Made by a program: the position numbers and the translations under genes
Notes under the pieces: model-generated
What the model saw: only the letters and a program-made list of their open reading frames with translations
Told to the model about the DNA's origin: nothing
Database searches by the model: none
Source of the DNA: Sphingomonadales bacterium
Lineage (GTDB): Bacteria > Bacteroidota > Bacteroidia > NS11-12g > UBA955
Assembly (NCBI GenBank): GCA_016872175.1
Contig: VHBA01000013.1
Location: 1 to 50,821 of the forward strand
Reading direction: 5' to 3'
Length of the DNA: 50,821 nucleotides
Shown here: positions 3,150-49,917 of the stretch, piece after piece
How positions within the stretch are numbered: the stretch's first letter is position 1
How the letters are laid out: each line of letters starts with the position of its first letter

Positions 3150-5261
3150 TTAGGGCGCAAAGGTAATGGGTTTGGTAATGAACCCGTTCCTTGTTTGGAT
3201 GCGAACCAGATAAATTGTACCGTTATCCACAGCGAGATTACCTAAGGTAATTAATGACTTACCCACAGGCATATATTTTTTACTTATGGTTTGAATTACC
3301 CTTCCCTGCACATCGCAGATATCGATATTAACCGGCATGCCCACCGTGAGGTTTAGTTCCAATGTGGCGCTTTCCCGAGCAGGATTGGGGTAAATAGCGG
3401 CTTTCACTTCGTCGGTCTCAACGGTATGCGTTCCTGTATACCACTGGCTTACGTTAATATCATCCAGCCAAACGGAATTACCTGCATTGCTGATAACATC
3501 AAAACGGAAAATGGCATTTTTGACGGTATCCAGTCGGTTTATGGAAGACAGTGATGGAAGTGAGAGAAGCTTCCATTGGCTTTTGCTTACCGGAACAAAC
3601 CCGGGTTTAGATGTTCCGCCGGAGTAGGCAAGTCCGGTGCCGGAGCGTTCTAGAAGTTGGTTAAATGAATTACCACAATCAGTAGATACGTATAGTCTTA
3701 AAACTTCTGTTGCTGTTGCATCTGCCGTTGGTAATGCATATGCCGCATAGAAAGAAAGACGTGCTGGCAGGCCGAGTTTGCCCAGCTTACTAAGATCATA
3801 AGGAGGTGTGCGGAAACTAAATACTGTTCCGGCAGCTACCGATGATGTAATTTTTGCCTGATAACTTTTACTGCCGGTGTAGGCAACCGTATCCGCCACA
3901 GCCCATCTGGCGCCAACAGGCGAAAGGTGTAAGTAGCCTCTTGAAACAGGATCACTTTCAAATTTTTCTTCTGCGTTGGGGTAAAGGGCGGCATCAGGAC
4001 CAATTACTTCAATGTAATCAGTTACGGATGAGGTGTTGCTTCCTTTTGCATTCTGAACCGTGAGAGAAACGGGATATTTACCGGCTGTTTGGTAAACTAC
4101 TACAGGCGACTCAGCTGTTGATGAGGGTGATGAAGAACCGGTTAGTGTCCAGCTGCGGGCGGTTACAGTTGCTTTGCAGCTAACATCATAAAAAGTAACG
4201 GGCTCTCCCGCACATACGACACGGTTTGAAGAAGAGAACGCCGCTGTGGGCGGTGTAGCTGAGTTTGGTGTAATACCCGTTGCCAGCAGATTGGCTGCAG
4301 AAACATTGCTTGATCGTGGAGCTTTTACCAGATAGCTGTGCATGATAGCTTTTTGCTGCAGGGTAAACATTGCCATGCAGTTTCCATCACTGTAATCCAT
4401 ATAATTTTCCCACTGGTCGGGAAGGTTTGGGTTGTCGGTTGCGCAGCTGTTGCCATTGGCCGGGCAGTTGGCATTGGTGAATGTTGAAGCCACAGGCGGA
4501 GTATCATCGCAGTTGTCCTGAGAATTACAGCCGCCTTGAAATGTATGAAACAGTCCGAGCCAGTGCCCAATCTCATGGGTCAGCGTTCTGCCGCTATCGC
4601 CGGGCACAGCCGTACCAATGGTTCCAACTCGATCGTTTCGTACTACTATACCGTCAACAAGGGCAGAGGTTGCAAATGGAAAGACGGCATAACCAAGGGT
4701 AATACCCTGACCCGAAGAGCCAATGCTGGTTACCACCCAGATATTCAGGTATTTGGTGTAATCCCAGCGCACCAGCGATTTTACTTTGGCATTTGCCTGA
4801 TCTACTTCTACACCGAATGGGCTGTAGACGCGGTTAATTCCATCGGTACATTTACCTGCAGGATCAATATTCGCCAATTTAAAATCTATTTGGCAGTCTG
4901 CGGCGACAGCGGTAAACTGACTTCGAATTTTACTACGGTTGGGATTCAAAAAATTGAAGTCCTGGTTTAAAATTCTTACCTGATCCAGTATTTGTTCACG
5001 GCTGATATTTTCGGGACCGTTGGTATGAATAACATGAAAAACCACGGGGATGGTGTATTTGGCGGCTCTGCGTGTTGGGTTTTTAGCAGCGGCACGCGCC
5101 TCCTGTGAGTGCGCCTCGCGTTTTACCGCAAGTGAAGGATCATCCTTAAGCATCTGCTGATACAGAAGCTCAGTTCCGCATGAATGCTCATGATGAAACT
5201 GGGCGGAAATTTTGATGGAAAAGACACTCAACAGTGTCAATACAGTAGTAATTCTCTTCAT
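3150..5261 (-). CDS. secreted M43 (pappalysin-like) zinc metalloprotease with PKD and T9SS sorting domains
   Basis: Exported endopeptidase of about 703 residues. A Sec signal (MKRITTVLTLLSVFSIKISAQ) starts it. The zinc site HEIGHWLGLFH (about residues 229-239) has the HExxHxxGxxH form of M43 cytophagalysin/pappalysin enzymes. It is followed by many cysteines and DNWENYMDYS-type residues including the Met-turn (YMDYSDGNCMAMF). A PKD domain lies near 330-420, then a jelly-roll-like region (about 430-600), and a C-terminal sorting domain beginning AAIYPNPARESA. The protein should cross the outer membrane by T9SS and be attached or released. Start: a frame 12 bases longer begins at TTG 5273, but that codon overlaps a TAnnTTTG box, so ATG 5261 is preferred. 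The substrate cannot be told from the sequence. Confidence 0.9.
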   Translation of the reverse strand: MKRITTVLTLLSVFSIKISAQFHHEHSCGTELLYQQMLKDDPSLAVKREAHSQEARAAAKNPTRRAAKYTIPVVFHVIHTNGPENISREQILDQVRILNQDFNFLNPNRSKIRSQFTAVAADCQIDFKLANIDPAGKCTDGINRVYSPFGVEVDQANAKVKSLVRWDYTKYLNIWVVTSIGSSGQGITLGYAVFPFATSALVDGIVVRNDRVGTIGTAVPGDSGRTLTHEIGHWLGLFHTFQGGCNSQDNCDDTPPVASTFTNANCPANGNSCATDNPNLPDQWENYMDYSDGNCMAMFTLQQKAIMHSYLVKAPRSSNVSAANLLATGITPNSATPPTAAFSSSNRVVCAGEPVTFYDVSCKATVTARSWTLTGSSSPSSTAESPVVVYQTAGKYPVSLTVQNAKGSNTSSVTDYIEVIGPDAALYPNAEEKFESDPVSRGYLHLSPVGARWAVADTVAYTGSKSYQAKITSSVAAGTVFSFRTPPYDLSKLGKLGLPARLSFYAAYALPTADATATEVLRLYVSTDCGNSFNQLLERSGTGLAYSGGTSKPGFVPVSKSQWKLLSLPSLSSINRLDTVKNAIFRFDVISNAGNSVWLDDINVSQWYTGTHTVETDEVKAAIYPNPARESATLELNLTVGMPVNIDICDVQGRVIQTISKKYMPVGKSLITLGNLAVDNGTIYLVRIQTRNGFITKPITFAP
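3158..3165 (-). promoter_or_regulatory. TAnnTTTG promoter box for topA
   Basis: TACCTTTG on the minus strand fits the Bacteroidota -7 consensus TAnnTTTG. Its last base is 38 bases from the topA ATG. It lies inside the final codons of the upstream M43 protease gene, so a chance coding match is possible. Confidence 0.4.
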
Positions 5262-5270
5262 GTTTGGCTG

Positions 5271-5278
5271 CAAAAATA
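5271..5278 (-). promoter_or_regulatory. TAnnTTTG promoter box for the M43 protease gene
   Basis: TATTTTTG on the minus strand, 9 bases before ATG 5261. Transcription should begin a few bases downstream of the box, leaving a leader of only a few bases. The position also argues against the longer TTG start at 5273. Confidence 0.6.
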
Positions 5279-5333: not shown

Positions 5334-5702
5334 TCAATCTCCAAGGGGAAAGAATGCATCGGGATGATAATAAAGGTGGCGGCTGAAAGAGGTTAGCACA
5401 ATAGAAATCACATCAAACCTAAGGGGACCATCGTGTGGAAATTTCCTTAGATAACGCTGAGCTGCAAGGATAAGTTTCTTTTGTTTACCGGCATTCACCA
5501 TATCCTCAGGGTGCATATTACCTGACTTGTCATATCTGGATTTAACCTCAATAAATATAATTCTATTGCCGTCTTTGGCAATAATGTCAATCTCGAGATG
5601 TCCTGTTCTCCAGTTTCTGTGTAGCACCTCAAAACCTTTGTACAATAAAAATTCTGCCGCTTGGCTTTCTCCGTTTTCACCAGTTTGTTGTGAAGAACCC
5701 AT
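5334..5702 (-). CDS. YraN family (UPF0102) predicted endonuclease
   Basis: 122-residue protein of the YraN/UPF0102 family, which has the restriction-endonuclease-like (PD-(D/E)XK) fold. Visible motif: G-H-L-E-I-D-I-IAKDGNRIIFIEVKSR, giving the acidic residue, the spaced D and the E-x-K pair. The N-terminus GENGESQAAEFLLYKGFEVLHRNWR matches the family's 'G...E..A..yL...Gy.il.rN.r' opening. A frame open to 5813 exists, but the added 37 residues are not family-like and would overlap lipB, so ATG 5702 is chosen. A TAnnTTTG box sits 5 bases upstream. The cellular role of the family is not settled; a link to DNA repair or recombination is often assumed. Confidence 0.88.
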   Translation of the reverse strand: MGSSQQTGENGESQAAEFLLYKGFEVLHRNWRTGHLEIDIIAKDGNRIIFIEVKSRYDKSGNMHPEDMVNAGKQKKLILAAQRYLRKFPHDGPLRFDVISIVLTSFSRHLYYHPDAFFPLGD

Positions 5703-5707
5703 ACAAA

Positions 5708-5715
5708 CAAATATA
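5708..5715 (-). promoter_or_regulatory. TAnnTTTG promoter box for the YraN gene
   Basis: TATATTTG on the minus strand, exactly 5 bases before ATG 5702. If transcription starts the usual few bases after the box, the mRNA is leaderless. It is divergent from a box for lipB 38 bases away. Confidence 0.6.
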
Positions 5716-5752
5716 CAATATTTTCTACAAAAAAGCAAGGGGTGAAATTTCG

Positions 5753-5760
5753 TAATTTTG
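5753..5760 (+). promoter_or_regulatory. TAnnTTTG promoter box for the lipB operon
   Basis: TAATTTTG on the plus strand, exactly 5 bases before ATG 5766. Like the divergent YraN promoter, this spacing predicts a leaderless or nearly leaderless transcript. It also argues against the upstream in-frame start codon at 5742. Confidence 0.6.
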
Positions 5761-5765
5761 CAGCT

Positions 5766-6452
5766 ATGCAAACATGCAATCTGCTGAATCTGGGTACGAT
5801 GGACTACAAGCAAGCCTGGGACATGCAGCTGGCATTATTTCAGGAAAAGATAGAATTGAAAGCCGCCGGTGGAAACCCCAACCATGATTTAATTTTCGTT
5901 GAACATCCGCATGTGTATACGTTTGGTAAAAGCGCAGAGAGAAAAAACCTGCTGGCAGACAGTGAAACCCTTACCCGTATTGGTGCCGGGGTTTATGATA
6001 TAGAACGCGGCGGAGACATTACCTACCATGGTCCCGGTCAGCTTGTGGCTTACCCGATTTTTGATCTGGAGCAACTGGGCATTGGGGTCAAAGCCTTTGT
6101 AGAAGGGATAGAGACAGCCATTATACGCACCCTGGCAGAATGGAATATTGTGGCAGAGACCATACCCGGCAGAATCGGGGTATGGATTGACAAGGATAAA
6201 CCCAACGAGCGTAAGATAGCAGCCATTGGTATCAAATGCAGCCGTTTTGTCAGTATGCATGGGCTAGCGCTGAATGTGAGTACCAACCTGGAAATGTTTG
6301 GCCACATTGTACCCTGTGGCATTTCAGACAAGATGGTATGCAGTATGGAAGGTGAGCTTGGCCGACAAATTGACATGTTGGTCGTAAAAAACACTTTGGG
6401 CAAGCATTTTGCCTCTATATTTGGAATACAATTTAACAATGAACCGCAATAA
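5766..6452 (+). CDS. lipB: octanoyl-[ACP]:protein N-octanoyltransferase
   Basis: Moves octanoate from octanoyl-ACP to the lipoyl domains of 2-oxoacid dehydrogenases and the glycine cleavage H protein, the first step of endogenous lipoate synthesis. The 228-residue protein carries the signature RGGDITYHGPGQ (about 81-92), then IAAIGIKCSRFVSMHGLALN with the conserved Lys (about 157), and PCGI with the acyl-accepting Cys (about 184). Start: ATG 5766 gives a family-like N-terminus (MQTCNLLNLGTMDYKQAWDMQ), whereas the longer frame from 5742 runs across the promoter box. Its end overlaps lemA by 14 bases, so lipB leads a four-gene transcription unit. Confidence 0.95.
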   Translation: MQTCNLLNLGTMDYKQAWDMQLALFQEKIELKAAGGNPNHDLIFVEHPHVYTFGKSAERKNLLADSETLTRIGAGVYDIERGGDITYHGPGQLVAYPIFDLEQLGIGVKAFVEGIETAIIRTLAEWNIVAETIPGRIGVWIDKDKPNERKIAAIGIKCSRFVSMHGLALNVSTNLEMFGHIVPCGISDKMVCSMEGELGRQIDMLVVKNTLGKHFASIFGIQFNNEPQ

Positions 6453-8297: not shown

Positions 8298-8305
8298 TAC
8301 CTTTG
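8298..8305 (+). promoter_or_regulatory. TAnnTTTG promoter box for uvrA
   Basis: TACCTTTG, 11 bases before the TTG start of uvrA at 8317. It implies its own promoter and a leader of only a few bases. Confidence 0.55.
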
Positions 8306-13195: not shown

Positions 13196-13213
13196 TACAT
13201 TTGAAAAAATGTT

Positions 13214-21364: not shown

Positions 21365-21392
21365 TAAGTTTGCAATACTAACAAATGTTAGT
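21365..21392 (+). promoter_or_regulatory. promoter box plus palindromic candidate operator at the TetR gene start
   Basis: TAAGTTTG (21365-21372) fits the TAnnTTTG core box, 12 bases before ATG 21385. Just after it lies a perfect inverted repeat, ACTAAC-AAAT-GTTAGT (21377-21392), which covers the predicted transcription start and the start codon. A regulator bound there would block its own promoter. That the TetR protein encoded next binds it is inference. Confidence 0.5.
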
Positions 21393-29488: not shown

Positions 29489-30382
29489 TTATTCTGTGTC
29501 AATTTCTATGGTTCTTCCTGCATCAAAACATGGTAATAAACCACTTTTCTTGACCAGAATCTGTCCGGGTTGTGAGCAAATCCATGCTGCAAAACCACTT
29601 CCAAGACCAGCATAACCTTGTAAATCATGCAAATACACATCCTGAACAAAAGGATATTGGCGTGTATATATCTGCGATTGAAAAGGATAAGCTATACCTG
29701 TTGAATCCGTTTTAACCTGTAAAATTTTTACTTTTTTCTGATAATACACGGCAAGTGTATCTGTTTTATCCGCAATGGCGTTAACACCTACAAAGCCAAT
29801 GTATCCATTGTGCATCGACACCCAATCTATGACATCATAAGGGCTTTTTCTGGTCACAACAGAAGATCTGACATATTCCTTCAGCTTGTATCGCCGGTAA
29901 AAATACATATAATTATTACCGCCTTTTCTGTCGAAACACAATTTGGTATCATCGTTGGTTTTTTCAGCCAACAGATATTTTTTCAGCTCATTTTCACTTA
30001 TAACCGAAAGATTTGAATTTTTATTGGCAACAATTGCAATGGAGGATTTGGCAAATTTTACATTTCGCACTTTAAAATTGCGGTTTTCGAGTGCCTGCTT
30101 CTCGTCCGGAAAGAAGTCTCTGTGCAATACACAAATCCTACATTTTCCGTCATTAACAGCCTGTAATATATCTGTTTCTGAAGCAAATTTGAATTGCAGC
30201 CTGGCTTTGGGATATTTGGATTCAAAAACATCTTTCATTTGGGTTAGCATTAGTGAATCGGCAAAATCAGCCCAAATACTAACATTTCCTGCAGTGGGTA
30301 CATCCTTGCCTTGGCCCTGAAAATCAAAATTGGTGCAAGCATTCAAAAAAAGGGATGCAAGACATATAAGGTTAATTCTCAT
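29489..30382 (-). CDS. PstS-like substrate-binding lipoprotein
   Basis: 297 residues from ATG 30382, giving a lipoprotein signal with lipobox LFLNAC. The periplasmic-binding fold of PstS type is visible (AGNVSIWADFADSLMLTQMKDVFESKYPKARLQFKFASETDILQAVNDGKCRICVLHRDF, YKLKEYVRSSVVTRKSPYDVIDWVSMHNGYIGFVG). The characteristic Gly/Ser/Thr phosphate loops are poorly kept, so phosphate binding is doubtful. No pstC, pstA, pstB or phoU is in the window. It overlaps the end of the small membrane protein gene by 11 bases, so the two are one unit. A longer frame to 30421 is unlikely because it would hide the lipobox. Confidence 0.78.
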   Translation of the reverse strand: MRINLICLASLFLNACTNFDFQGQGKDVPTAGNVSIWADFADSLMLTQMKDVFESKYPKARLQFKFASETDILQAVNDGKCRICVLHRDFFPDEKQALENRNFKVRNVKFAKSSIAIVANKNSNLSVISENELKKYLLAEKTNDDTKLCFDRKGGNNYMYFYRRYKLKEYVRSSVVTRKSPYDVIDWVSMHNGYIGFVGVNAIADKTDTLAVYYQKKVKILQVKTDSTGIAYPFQSQIYTRQYPFVQDVYLHDLQGYAGLGSGFAAWICSQPGQILVKKSGLLPCFDAGRTIEIDTE

Positions 30383-30584
30383 CAGATGATTTTCTTTTTC
30401 TCCGAAATATAAGATAGCCATTCACGCCCCGGAATAGCCCCCAAATTATCAGTATACCGCCAAACCATGCCGGATTTATTCCTTTCAATGAAAGAGATTC
30501 AGGATTAATAATCCAAAAATAAAAACCCATACAGATAAAAACAGAGGCGGTGAGAAAATGATAAAAGTGACCTGTTTTAAACAT
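30372..30584 (-). CDS. small membrane protein upstream of PstS-like lipoprotein
   Basis: 70 residues with two hydrophobic helices (HFYHFLTASVFICMGFYFWII and PAWFGGILIIWGLFRGVNGYLIF) and a positive tail (RRKRKSSDEN). No family recognised. The ATG at 30584 is chosen because the upstream region holds a TAnnTTTG box (5 bases away) and then the terminator of the preceding gene; a frame open to 30602 would run into the box. The 11-base overlap with the lipoprotein gene suggests a joint envelope function. Confidence 0.7.
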   Translation of the reverse strand: MFKTGHFYHFLTASVFICMGFYFWIINPESLSLKGINPAWFGGILIIWGLFRGVNGYLIFRRKRKSSDEN

Positions 30585-30589
30585 CAGTA

Positions 30590-30597
30590 CAAAAATA
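30590..30597 (-). promoter_or_regulatory. TAnnTTTG promoter box for the small membrane protein gene
   Basis: TATTTTTG on the minus strand, exactly 5 bases before ATG 30584, the same spacing as at lipB and the YraN gene. Predicts a leaderless mRNA. Confidence 0.6.
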
Positions 30598-34153: not shown

Positions 34154-34903
34154 ATCCTCGAGCCACTCTTCCCTTCCTGAAGTGAATTTCGCCACCGGAT
34201 CGCAGGCAGCGTTATTGAATGGGTTGAAGTTTATATTCATGGTTTTGGATGCATTGTACCCTTTACCAACCGCAAAACAGGGAAAACATTTGCCTTCGCG
34301 GCTTACTTCATAATGAAATCCTTCCCCAGTACTGATTATTGCGTCAGCAGTCCAGTTGGTTTTGAATTTTGCATTTCTGGTGGTTTGACCTTGAGGATCC
34401 AAATTAATTATGCCGGTCAAATTTATAGGGAATTTTTCTTTGTTAATGCGTAGTTCAGCATTTGCATGAACGGCAATTTCATAAAATGATGAGGAAGTAA
34501 AATTGAGGGTACCGGAAAAGTAAATAGGTCCTTTACTTCCCATCACAGCGAAACTATCTTCGGTCCTGGCTGTCATCAGGCAAGTATCGAGAAAAAAAAT
34601 GCTGCCCGAGTATCCATTTTTTATTAGGCATTTCCCTTTTCTTGTAAGGCCGTCGGCACAAACAACTCCGCTGTTAAAATCAAACCAGATTCCGCTATCG
34701 GTAAGCAAAAGCAATGGCACTGTGGCCCGCGAATTCCCCCAATCTCGCAGTACTTCAGCTGTTGGAATGAATGCATGGCTTGCCAATGCCTGAAACGCAG
34801 TCGCATTGTCTATAGCCGGCTGAAATGAATTGCCAATATCCTCAGTCTTACGGCATCCCAATAACAGTATTGGAAGTGCAATCAATAAAAATGAAAAACG
34901 CAT
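34145..34903 (-). CDS. lipoprotein of unknown function, paralogue of the next upstream gene
   Basis: 252 residues from ATG 34903, giving a lipoprotein signal (MRFSFLLIALPILLLGC). The body is beta-rich with no catalytic motif I recognise. It shares with the neighbouring lipoprotein (34947-35816) a closing block (NINFNPFNNAACDPVAKFTSG here, EIDFDPFNNAACDRTAKALFG there) and a middle block (VCADGLTRKGKCLI here, LCGDGRYRAGKVQI there). The two are tandem paralogues. The shared asparagine- and cysteine-bearing end may be a structural cap. It is the last gene of the minus-strand run. Confidence 0.75.
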   Translation of the reverse strand: MRFSFLLIALPILLLGCRKTEDIGNSFQPAIDNATAFQALASHAFIPTAEVLRDWGNSRATVPLLLLTDSGIWFDFNSGVVCADGLTRKGKCLIKNGYSGSIFFLDTCLMTARTEDSFAVMGSKGPIYFSGTLNFTSSSFYEIAVHANAELRINKEKFPINLTGIINLDPQGQTTRNAKFKTNWTADAIISTGEGFHYEVSREGKCFPCFAVGKGYNASKTMNINFNPFNNAACDPVAKFTSGREEWLEDLW

Positions 34904-34946
34904 CCTACAAAAATACGCCATTCATGTATTTGAATGCATGGTAAAC

Positions 34947-38622: not shown

Positions 38623-40220
38623 TTAGAGGTTAGTTTTTGTAATTTACTGGTAGATGGCAGATTCCTTCCGCTCCATTTGGCTAAGACAACGGCATCTTTG
38701 AACAGATAGAGCGTGGGATTATAACGCGCCAGCGTCATCAGCATTTTCTGATCGGCCGAAAGAAAGGTAAATGGAAGTTTTTGTGCCTTAACATAAGCTG
38801 CCGATGGCTCAGCACTGCTCGCTGTTACAGGGTAAAAGGCTACCTTATTTCGCTTAGACCAGTTGAATATTTCACTAATTTCAGGATTAGCTCCATTATA
38901 CCCTTTATCGGTGTATGTAAAAACCCAAAGCAACTTATAACCTTTGCTAAGGATAAAACTATCCTTCAAATCAGCGCCAGTGCGCGGATCTGAAATAGCA
39001 AAGTCATGTATAGGGCTTTTGTAACCTTCAATAATAATTTTGTCTATTCTCCGTCTGAATTTCCATCTTTCTTTTTCAAACTTCTCATACCCATCCGTGT
39101 ATTCTTTTGTGGTAACACTTACACTGTCTTTGCCTTTTTCCAATACAAAAAGCATTTGAACACTGTCAGACGCGCGCATTCCTCTCGGAATTTCAGTCAT
39201 GATTTTATGAATATCATTGCCGGGTTTGTAAGGCAGAAAATCCCATAAAGGAAGATACAGGTAACATAACCATCCAAAGGCGGCAGAAAGCAAGCTAATT
39301 ACCCCCATGAACTTCCAGCCGAAGCCTTTGCTAAACCATGGTTTAATGTATGATCTGCCAAAAACAATAATCAAGATAAGGCCACTGAGAATTACATCTT
39401 TGAAAAAGGACTCTTTGGGTTTCAATTTGATAAAATCTCCAAAGCAACCGCAATCTGTAACTTTATTAAAAATCCATGAATACCAGGTAAGGAAAGTGAA
39501 GAAAACGATGAGGAGCAGCATGGACAAGGAGGTAAATGTGATACTCCAGCCCACCAACAATGCAAAACCCAAAATTACCTCCAGGGCACAAAATGCAACC
39601 GACAGATACAAGCTGTATTTCTTGTTGGACAGGAAGAACCCGTGCAGTGCACCTTCTTTCTTAACGTAAGGCTCCAGTTGAAGATCTGTTTTAAATACAT
39701 CACTGTGGCTGCTTTCAAAGTGGACATCTTTCTGGTAGATGGTTTTGCCGGCTACTACACACCTTACTACCGCCATAGATTTGGACCCTGAATCCTGAGC
39801 TTGTAAGGCGATTTCACCTGCCGGCAATTTTTTGTAGGTAGCATTGAGTTTGAGATTATAAGTTCTGCGAGGTGCTTTGGGCTTATTTCTTTTGCCTTTT
39901 TTTTCTACGCTTGTTAGAGCAGAGTCTTTGGTAACTGCAGAATCTGGGATGGCAACTGCAGACTCGCTGTTAACCTGAATATTCAGGGGTGCAGTTTTGT
40001 CTGAACTGAACAATGGGTAACTTGTTTGCAGTAAAAGCTTGGCTCCGTCCAGCAACTGAATATGCAAGGAATCTTGTTTTTGTGCAACATCTGCAGCAAA
40101 AACATCGAAGTATTCATTGAGTTTGATGGCAAAACCACTGGGGTCATTCAATTTCACCATTCCGGAAAAAATGAAGAGCAAAGCGGTAAAAACGCGTGAT
40201 ATCTGAACGACTATTCTCAT
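38619..40220 (-). CDS. BT_3928-like membrane protein: DoxX/MauE-type helices plus C-terminal domain
   Basis: 533 residues. The N-terminal helix with FSGMVKLNDPSGFAIKLNEYF is the signature of DoxX/MauE-type redox membrane proteins. Three to four further helices follow near 205-315, and a cysteine pair lies in VTDCGCFGDFIKLKP (about 262), a motif of MauE-like thiol partners. A large C-terminal soluble domain (about 340-530) resembles a thioredoxin-like fold (GYKLLWVFTYTDKGY, ... PTLYLFKD) but without a CxxC pair. A Ser/Ala/Lys-rich segment (about 90-120) interrupts the loop after the first helix. ATGA overlaps link it to DUF1599 before and the permease after. Role unproven. Confidence 0.8.
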   Translation of the reverse strand: MRIVVQISRVFTALLFIFSGMVKLNDPSGFAIKLNEYFDVFAADVAQKQDSLHIQLLDGAKLLLQTSYPLFSSDKTAPLNIQVNSESAVAIPDSAVTKDSALTSVEKKGKRNKPKAPRRTYNLKLNATYKKLPAGEIALQAQDSGSKSMAVVRCVVAGKTIYQKDVHFESSHSDVFKTDLQLEPYVKKEGALHGFFLSNKKYSLYLSVAFCALEVILGFALLVGWSITFTSLSMLLLIVFFTFLTWYSWIFNKVTDCGCFGDFIKLKPKESFFKDVILSGLILIIVFGRSYIKPWFSKGFGWKFMGVISLLSAAFGWLCYLYLPLWDFLPYKPGNDIHKIMTEIPRGMRASDSVQMLFVLEKGKDSVSVTTKEYTDGYEKFEKERWKFRRRIDKIIIEGYKSPIHDFAISDPRTGADLKDSFILSKGYKLLWVFTYTDKGYNGANPEISEIFNWSKRNKVAFYPVTASSAEPSAAYVKAQKLPFTFLSADQKMLMTLARYNPTLYLFKDAVVLAKWSGRNLPSTSKLQKLTSK

Positions 40221-40792
40221 TGTTCCTGCATTCTGATTAAGGCAAAAATAGCATAATTAATAATATCCTGATAATTTGCCGAAACACCTTCACTGGCGAT
40301 GGTTTTACCGGCGTTATCCTCAATCTGTTTGATACGGGCAATTTTTACAAGTATTAGGTCTGTAAAACTGCTAACCCGCATATCGCGCCAAGCTTCACCG
40401 TAGTCGGTATTCTTCATTAGCATGAGGTCACAGGTCAAATGGGTGTGGTAATCATAAAGTTCCAGGATTTCTTTGATATCGTCGGTATCGTGCTTTTCAT
40501 CTAAAAGCTGCAATTGTATAAGCGCAATAATGCTGTAGTTAATAATTCCCATGAATTCCCCTTCAATATCCTCTCCCACCAGATTCTTCCCGCTGATTTC
40601 AATATTGCGTATGCGTTGTGCTTTTATAGAAATCTGGTCGGTGATGCTTTGGGGCCGGAATACCCGCCATGAAGTGCCATAATCCGTGTTTTTTTTCTCG
40701 AAAATATTTCTGCAAATGTGCAGAATGGCATTGTATTGTTCACGGGTTTTTTCCATCTCCTGAGTATGTTGCGAATTTAAAGCTTCAGCCAT
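40217..40792 (-). CDS. DUF1599 (nucleotide modification-associated domain 1) protein, internally duplicated
   Basis: 191 residues from ATG 40792 (a TTG 15 bases upstream is less likely). Two tandem copies of one module are plain: KNTDYGTSWRVFRPQSITDQISIKAQRIRNIE... ending IEGEFMGIINYSIIALIQL, and KNTDYGEAWRDMRVSSFTDLILVKIARIKQIE... ending ANYQDIINYAIFALIRM. This is the DUF1599 architecture. The related phage domain is linked to DNA base modification, but the bacterial chromosomal form has no proven activity. It heads a run in which each gene touches the next (ATGA into the BT_3928-like gene). Confidence 0.88.
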   Translation of the reverse strand: MAEALNSQHTQEMEKTREQYNAILHICRNIFEKKNTDYGTSWRVFRPQSITDQISIKAQRIRNIEISGKNLVGEDIEGEFMGIINYSIIALIQLQLLDEKHDTDDIKEILELYDYHTHLTCDLMLMKNTDYGEAWRDMRVSSFTDLILVKIARIKQIEDNAGKTIASEGVSANYQDIINYAIFALIRMQEQ

Positions 40793-46378: not shown

Positions 46379-46386
46379 TAATTTTG
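46379..46386 (+). promoter_or_regulatory. TAnnTTTG promoter box flanked by a 7-bp inverted repeat
   Basis: TAATTTTG, 10 bases before ATG 46397. It lies inside the spacer of a perfect inverted repeat: AGGTTCT (46372-46378) and AGAACCT (46388-46394). The arrangement could be an operator around the promoter box, or chance. Confidence 0.5.
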
Positions 46387-49552: not shown

Positions 49553-49900
49553 TTACAGATGAAGTCGCTCCTTGCGGTCCAGTAAAACTTCTTTACTTTC
49601 TACATGGTCAGGATCGGGCACACAGCAATCTACCGGGCACACTGCGGCACACTGCGGTTCTTCATGAAAACCCGTGCATTCGGTACATTTATCCGGTACA
49701 ATAAAATATACTTCGCTGCTGATAGGCGCAAACTTTTCGTTTGCATCCACTATCCTGCCGTCCGCCATGGTAAACGAACCCTTTACACCAGTTCCTTGGG
49801 ATATTGTCCATTCAAGACCCGCTTCATATATCGCGTTATTTGGGCATTCCGGCTCACAAGCTCCGCAATTGATACATTCATCGGTTATAATTATTGCCAT
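49553..49900 (-). CDS. ferredoxin with two [4Fe-4S] clusters
   Basis: 115 residues from ATG 49900, chosen because the start leads straight into the first cluster motif ([20 protein letters not shown]) and a TAnnTTTG box lies 9 bases upstream. The second set of cysteines is [18 protein letters not shown], followed by VDCCV. This two-cluster form with a longer middle segment (about 30 residues) is common in Bacteroidota. A small electron carrier; the partner is not shown here. Confidence 0.93.
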
Positions 49901-49909
49901 AATGTGCTG

Positions 49910-49917
49910 CAAAATTA
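49910..49917 (-). promoter_or_regulatory. TAnnTTTG promoter box for the ferredoxin gene
   Basis: TAATTTTG on the minus strand, 9 bases before ATG 49900. Supports the short start and a leader of about four bases. Confidence 0.6.

Follow-up and report, generated by a model that had tools for sequence, protein, structure and literature searches.

TAnnTTTG boxes placed 4 to 12 bases before start codons point to leaderless and near-leaderless messages in a Bacteroidota lineage

Exact TAnnTTTG boxes are concentrated 4 to 12 bases before the predicted start codons of the Bacteroidota genome G000. Judging from the sequence, we consider it probable (roughly 0.85) that these boxes are promoters with leaders of 0-8 bases and that many messages begin at the first codon or a few bases before it. 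The trait is real and was understated by the initial annotation, which had described it for eight genes of one contig; it is genome-wide in G000, and both the congener and other genera of the family show it in weaker form.

The window, i.e. the whole stretch of 50,821 nucleotides that was analysed, is contig 13 of G000 (2.26 Mb, 91 contigs). The box was searched as exact TAnnTTTG, and the gap is the number of bases between the end of the box and the start codon. Genes were called in the window and 60 further stretches, together 1.24 Mb or 55% of G000, with a rough caller that uses in-frame hexamer scores and chooses starts blind to the upstream sequence, all start codons in the G000 analysis being predicted ones. 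It returned 1010 genes, 963 of them complete with 150 upstream bases. Genes with a divergent neighbour, or with more than 60 bases between them and the preceding same-strand gene, were taken as operon-first (n = 521) and those 20 bases or fewer after a same-strand gene as operon-inner (n = 276), the 166 others belonging to neither group. Published data were taken from parts of seven papers (PMC6847099, PMC7366714, PMC9723704, PMC3160421, PMC10783764, PMC9976891 and PMC9581028), and the statements cited below hold for those parts.

By lipB, the nearest relative with a name is a 'Flavobacteriales' genome assembled from a metagenome (89% identity). In the lipB tree, the window groups with L069 and L070 only, and the branches are long at the deeper placement. 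Six metagenome genomes (L070, L089, L091, L097, L113 and L140) bear the titles Chitinophaga pinensis or Chryseobacterium gleum and fall outside those families in this tree, which makes the names doubtful.

The eight box spacings quoted by the initial annotation were all exact on recount (Table 1). Its gene identities stood for UPF0102 (YraN), LplA-B/lipB, UvrA, Peptidase_M43, 4Fe-4S and TetR, all above Pfam or NCBIfam cut-offs, and the IPExxxVDY model matched below its cut-off (23.1 of 40 bits); the 70-residue protein is without a family match in Pfam and NCBIfam. For the 252-residue protein, the coding-score caller favoured a start at 34708, and the gene would be exactly leaderless if the ATG at 34903 holds. 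The MFS gene begins 18 bases after the preceding same-strand gene, therefore its box is an internal promoter at most. For the MauE-domain protein, the caller favoured a start at 40160 over the ATG at 40220.

Table 1. TAnnTTTG-type boxes of the window and the genes that follow them
Feature	Sequence	Position	Strand	Gap (bases)	Remark
Putative -7 promoter box	TATATTTG	5708..5715	-	5	before YraN ATG (5702)
YraN/UPF0102 gene		5334..5702	-		family match
Putative -7 promoter box	TAATTTTG	5753..5760	+	5	before lipB ATG (5766)
lipB gene (octanoyltransferase)		5766..6452	+		family match
Putative -7 box	TATTTTTG	30590..30597	-	5	before ATG 30584, 70-residue protein (30372-30584)
Putative -7 box	TATTTTTG	5271..5278	-	9	before ATG 5261, M43 protease gene (3150-5261)
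Putative -7 box	TAATTTTG	49910..49917	-	9	before ATG 49900, ferredoxin gene (49553-49900)
Putative -7 box	TAATTTTG	46379..46386	+	10	before ATG 46397, IPExxxVDY-like (below cut-off)
Putative -7 box	TACCTTTG	8298..8305	+	11	before TTG 8317 of uvrA
Putative -7 box	TAAGTTTG	21365..21372	+	12	before ATG 21385, TetR gene
Putative -7 box	TATTTTTG	34908..34915	-	4	before ATG 34903 (252 aa, no family match); absent from the initial annotation
Putative -7-like box	TACATTTG	13196..13203	+	10	before ATG 13214, MFS gene; absent from the initial annotation
Contrast box	TATTTTTG	40243..40250	-	22	before ATG 40220 (MauE-domain protein); ordinary leader length

Over the whole window, boxes are no more frequent than in shuffled sequence (49 vs an expected 50.1). 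Called starts have 6 boxes at gaps of 4-12 before them, whereas 20,000 circular shifts gave 0.19 on average and never as many as 6; the count of 6 is low, since the caller missed the M43 protease, ferredoxin and 70-residue protein starts that the initial annotation had used. The YraN/lipB divide (5703-5765) spans 63 bases and carries a near box for either gene, and two polymerases could hardly be bound on it together. Near boxes on both sides occur in 6 of 140 divergent pairs of the sampled G000, with 43-68 bases between. A further box, at 6416-6423, lies within the 3' end of lipB, 15 bases upstream of the start of a LemA-family gene (6439), for which it is a possible internal promoter.

Before the 521 operon-first starts of G000, exact boxes at gaps 4 to 12 numbered 23, 11, 7, 15, 9, 10, 10, 4 and 5, i.e. 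94 in sum where about 6 were expected from a background of 0.67 boxes per position, taken 70-139 bases upstream. The commonest gap is 4, and the distribution starts there and declines past 12: gaps 0-3 held no exact box before these starts compared to 56 at gaps 4-7, as expected if the start codon must lie inside the transcript. A near box (gap 4-12) precedes 93 of the 521 operon-first genes but only 5 of the 276 operon-inner ones (Fisher p 3e-13), and none of the latter has it at gap 4-5. Five control motifs exhibited no rise near starts, and the box in reverse complement becomes more frequent only about 50 bases away. In the shuffle comparison that the initial annotation had proposed, boxes at 4-12 proved far commoner than control motifs, than boxes at farther positions and than shifted boxes. 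With an alternative start rule, the first ATG per reading frame, 512 genes gave 86 boxes at 4-12 and 2 at 0-3.

The excess of exact boxes in G000 is 88 at 4-12 compared to 35 at 13-42, to which one-mismatch boxes add 62 and 27, respectively. Leaders of 0-8 bases are implied by about 72% of the excess of exact boxes within 42 bases, compared to 7% in Flavobacterium terrisoli with the same code. An exact box at gap 4-64 is present in only 177 of the 521 operon-first genes; the 72% share thus applies to promoters that can be recognised within 42 bases, and the exact-box approach under-counts both longer leaders and degenerate boxes. The context TTTGCA is common to near boxes, far boxes and the boxes of F. 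terrisoli. A clear -33 (TTTG/TTG) column is absent from the box-aligned logos of G000 and F. terrisoli alike, and is likewise unclear in F. johnsoniae (PMC6847099). A variant, TAnnTTnG, with the third T of TTTG replaced, is enriched before operon-first genes of G000 at exactly gap 4 (10, with a background of 0.46 per position), possibly the mark of another sigma factor.

The box spans -12 to -5 in F. psychrophilum (PMC9723704), and 4 or 5 bases lie between box and transcription start in F. johnsoniae (PMC6847099). With the box at -12 to -5, a gap of 4 would place the 5' end of the transcript at the first base of the start codon, and the gap of 5 of lipB and YraN would give a leader of 0 or 1 base. 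The boxes would then be -7 elements of primary-sigma (sigma-A of Bacteroidota) promoters, and transcription would start 4-5 bases past the box, on the start codon or 1-8 bases before it. Most G000 transcripts with a recognisable promoter within 42 bases of the start would be leaderless or near-leaderless. The ribosome may take the 5'-terminal or near-terminal AUG without help from a Shine-Dalgarno sequence or upstream A-rich bases, with the operon-inner genes presumably retaining the A-rich, leadered initiation described in F. johnsoniae. The initial annotation had proposed leaderless or near-leaderless transcripts for several genes, and this is well supported by the onset at gap 4, the rarity of the box at operon-inner genes, the spacing in the congener and the lack of a second box upstream. 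For the last step, we infer the position of the transcription start from Flavobacterium promoters, and the mode of initiation from other leaderless systems.

Comparison of G000 with its congener G052 gave 158 reciprocal best pairs, 151 of them with comparable starts. A box within 60 bases was present in both genomes in 39 pairs, in G000 alone in 2 and in G052 alone in 5, and the gap agreed within one base in 35 of the 39 (shuffled mean 5.5). Among 68 operon-first pairs, the box was kept at the aligned place in 26 of 28 cases, compared to 6 of 21 for nine control motifs in all. In a small set of 15 near pairs, the box is 97-100% identical, the upstream bases 86% and bases 5-12 after the box 68%; the latter are 85% identical in 13 far pairs, also a small set. 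Near genes exhibit codon periodicity from codon 2 onward in the G000-G052 pairs. For YraN the gap is 4 in the congener L069, and for lipB it is 5 in L069 and 4 in the more distant L070. A second peak is seen at gap 7, i.e. a 3-base leader (22 in G000, 11 in G052), and 7-7 is kept in 8 ortholog pairs.

Using the same code on 400 kb of F. terrisoli, we found 5 boxes at 4-12 and 41 at 13-42, compared to 94 and 55 in G000, and 3 boxes at gap 0-3. The nearest box has a median gap of 28, which corresponds to a leader length of about 24 bases, the same as the published median of F. psychrophilum (PMC9723704). The exact-box excess within 42 bases was then divided into shares at gaps 4-5, 6-12 and 13-42, with wide intervals for the 200-kb sets. 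These shares are 27/45/28% in G000, 21/33/46% in the congener, 12/34/54% and 12/20/69% in two other genera of the window's family (G066 and G064), 35/-3/68% in G020, 10/-3/93% in F. terrisoli and 16/12/72% in 78 short loci pooled from other Bacteroidota. The share at 4-12 with exact boxes is 72% in G000, 54% in the congener and 46% and 32% in the two other genera; with one-mismatch boxes it is 71% in G000, 41% in the congener, 38% in G066 and 34% in G064. The shares at gap 4-5 indicate that exact leaderless promoters occur in other lineages also. Among the genomes with this start-anchored analysis, the class of 2-8 base leaders sets the window's family apart.

Across the class, the pattern box + 4 bases + ATG was counted with the reversed pattern as control, these counts being noisier than start-anchored histograms. 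All 25 genomes of family f1 were above control, 13 of them at twofold or more, and all 14 of the other family of the order showed ratios of 1.3-1.8. As the median ratio of 158 genomes of the class is already 1.74 (27 genomes below 1.2), f1 is not exceptional at gap 4. The exact-leaderless signature (twofold or more, p<1e-4) is carried by 45 of the 158 genomes and 24 of the 63 families, and the idea that it is peculiar to the window's family was rejected. Families f77 and f80 are the strongest in the class sample, with 356/75, 288/89 and 269/77 matches over control in the sampled f77 genomes (G357, G389, G414) and 223/16, 161/8, 152/6 and 178/23 in those of f80 (G360, G391, G416, G440), an excess of 146-281 matches per 1.9-3.0 Mb genome. 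A high pattern count can accompany mostly leadered promoters, as in G020, where the pattern is high at gap 4 (149 vs 32) yet 70 operon-first genes gave 4 boxes at 4-5, none at 6-12 and 9 at 13-42. In f26, a family of the same phylum outside the window's class, the pattern likewise reached several times the control (for example 56/8, 38/6 and 28/4 in G232, G224 and G201).

With 7 bases in place of 4, the class median is 1.08 and 15 of the 158 genomes pass (1.5-fold, p<1e-3), in seven families (f1, f46, f53, f54, f77, f80 and f87). In f1, all 20 genomes examined of the 25 were above control (summed counts 1376 vs 840), two of them assigned to f1 because they share the counts of G052 and G060. 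Results are mixed in the order's other family, where 3 of 7 were above control. For gap 7, the idea of a signature peculiar to the window's family is kept in a weaker form. From these patterns, we lean towards the reading that promoters of several families in the class have shifted up against the start codons, and that leaderless mRNA (f77, f80) or mRNA with 2-8 base leaders (the window's family) may be a main form of message, despite the retention of bS21 and the anti-Shine-Dalgarno. If true, the class would offer a natural gradient between leadered and leaderless translation on one type of ribosome.

Starts called too far upstream would give the same picture if the real ones lay about 20-30 bases downstream and leaders were normal. 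The starts rest on coding score only, the 92 TTG and 77 GTG starts among the 963 genes suggest some errors, and the family models of UvrA align only from residue 11-13 of the protein started at TTG. Nevertheless, leaders of F. terrisoli come out at ordinary lengths with the same caller, near genes are codon-periodic from codon 2 onward, operon-first genes have no box at gaps 0-3, and the ATG falls exactly at the first aligned residue in 15 of 80 lipB loci, where alignments begin at residue 1; this explanation is therefore highly unlikely. The box could also be a signal for translation initiation rather than a promoter, an AT-rich non-canonical ribosome-binding site having been assigned to this group in gene-start work (PMC9581028). 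Such an element, however, would hardly be rare at operon-inner genes, which need translation signals too, or stand at a gap varying from 4 to 12; moreover, F. terrisoli has this extended motif at 13-40 bases upstream, which is the published promoter distance, and near-box genes have no second box upstream. We regard a ribosome-binding role as extremely improbable.

That near boxes are a by-product of a compact genome with short intergenic regions would agree with the same-strand median spacing of 37 bases in G000 vs 58 in F. terrisoli and the coding fraction of 0.88 vs 0.85. Yet among 142 genes with at least 200 free upstream bases, near boxes still outnumber those at 13-42 (22 vs 13), and in the pattern count f80 and f77 (1.9-3.0 Mb) are strong at gap 4 but f55 genomes of 2.5-2.7 Mb exhibit little or none, so there is only the slightest chance that compactness is the cause. 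The near boxes might instead be secondary promoters, the main promoter lying farther upstream and giving an ordinary leadered mRNA. This may hold for individual genes, and degenerate upstream promoters would escape detection; a further exact box at 15-80 was found, however, in 1 of 93 near genes vs 95 of 428 other operon-first genes, which makes this explanation very unlikely. All four were rejected on this evidence, and promoters with 0-8 base leaders are the preferred reading.

Shine-Dalgarno-like 4-mers precede 1 of 120 near ATG genes where shuffles predict 2.7. Such words are rare in all gene classes of G000, therefore their absence at near genes is necessary rather than distinctive. An A at -3 is present in 30% of near genes, a value that is not raised, compared to 52% of operon-inner genes, whose upstream bases are A-rich. 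The 130 near genes start with ATG (120), GTG (7) or TTG (3), and the 103 genes with a box at 16-60 with ATG (81), GTG (6) or TTG (16); near genes thus show the strong preference for AUG (or GUG) expected of leaderless mRNAs. By analogy, direct recognition of the 5'-terminal or near-terminal AUG by the ribosome with initiator tRNA is likely at near genes, as described for leaderless systems elsewhere (PMC10783764). A lost anti-Shine-Dalgarno was rejected as the cause: the 16S tail of G000, ...GGACCACCTCCTTT, keeps CCTCC, and the anti-Shine-Dalgarno is kept in the 10 16S tails read from the window's order. In these 10 genomes (L201-L210), the 3' tail reads GGACCACCTCC; the usual form of the 16S 3' tail is GGATCACCTCC. 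Loss of bS21 was rejected as well, the protein (PF01165) being present in 36 of 37 genomes, with one f80 genome as the sole miss.

These results bear on how Bacteroidota ribosomes find start codons. These ribosomes hide their anti-Shine-Dalgarno (PMC9976891), and the missing Shine-Dalgarno sequences of F. johnsoniae were held not to be explicable by leaderless mRNA (PMC6847099). A lineage with 0-8 base leaders as the common form would make part of the answer lineage-specific and would offer a sequence-based check on start-codon annotation, near-leaderless initiation becoming directly testable by reporters in F. johnsoniae. Among the matches listed from an open-access library with neither preprints nor subscription papers, no title or abstract opening reported a Bacteroidota lineage in which leaderless or near-leaderless genes prevail. 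Of 37 Bacteroidetes/Chlorobi genomes, a single one had leaderless genes in a 2011 survey that counted only Pribnow-like boxes and warned of underestimation in this group (PMC3160421). Leaderless mRNA is already known, being predicted for up to 40% of a genome's transcripts in some bacteria, e.g. M. tuberculosis (PMC9581028); its dominance in G000 would be new for Bacteroidota.

The -7 TAnnTTTG of G000 is the same as that of the primary-sigma promoters of F. johnsoniae, F. psychrophilum and Bacteroides thetaiotaomicron in the published parts consulted, and the 4-5 bases from box to start reported for Flavobacterium equal the onset of start codons at gap 4. The mapped leaders of Bacteroidota are, however, mostly longer: 87% exceed 10 bases in F. 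johnsoniae, for genes with probable promoters (PMC6847099), 5.5% are leaderless in F. psychrophilum (PMC9723704) and 3.7% of leaders are below 10 bases in B. thetaiotaomicron. In G000, in contrast, the inferred leaders peak at a length of 0, and those that can be recognised within 42 bases are mostly of 0-8 bases; the near-leaderless form is thus uncommon in the Bacteroidota members with mapped messages, as far as these sources go. A passing remark in PMC10783764, which speaks against novelty, mentions reports of leaderless mRNA in some Flavobacteriia that lack CCUCC; G000 keeps CCTCC. The Kozak-like leadered initiation of F. johnsoniae is matched by the operon-inner genes of G000, with their A-rich upstream bases and frequent A at -3, but not by the near-box genes. 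With the leaderless mRNAs of Mycobacterium tuberculosis, Deinococcus-Thermus and archaea, G000 shares the short distance from promoter to start and the lack of leader signals; it differs from them in its sigma box and in the 2-8 base leaders added to the exact leaderless class.
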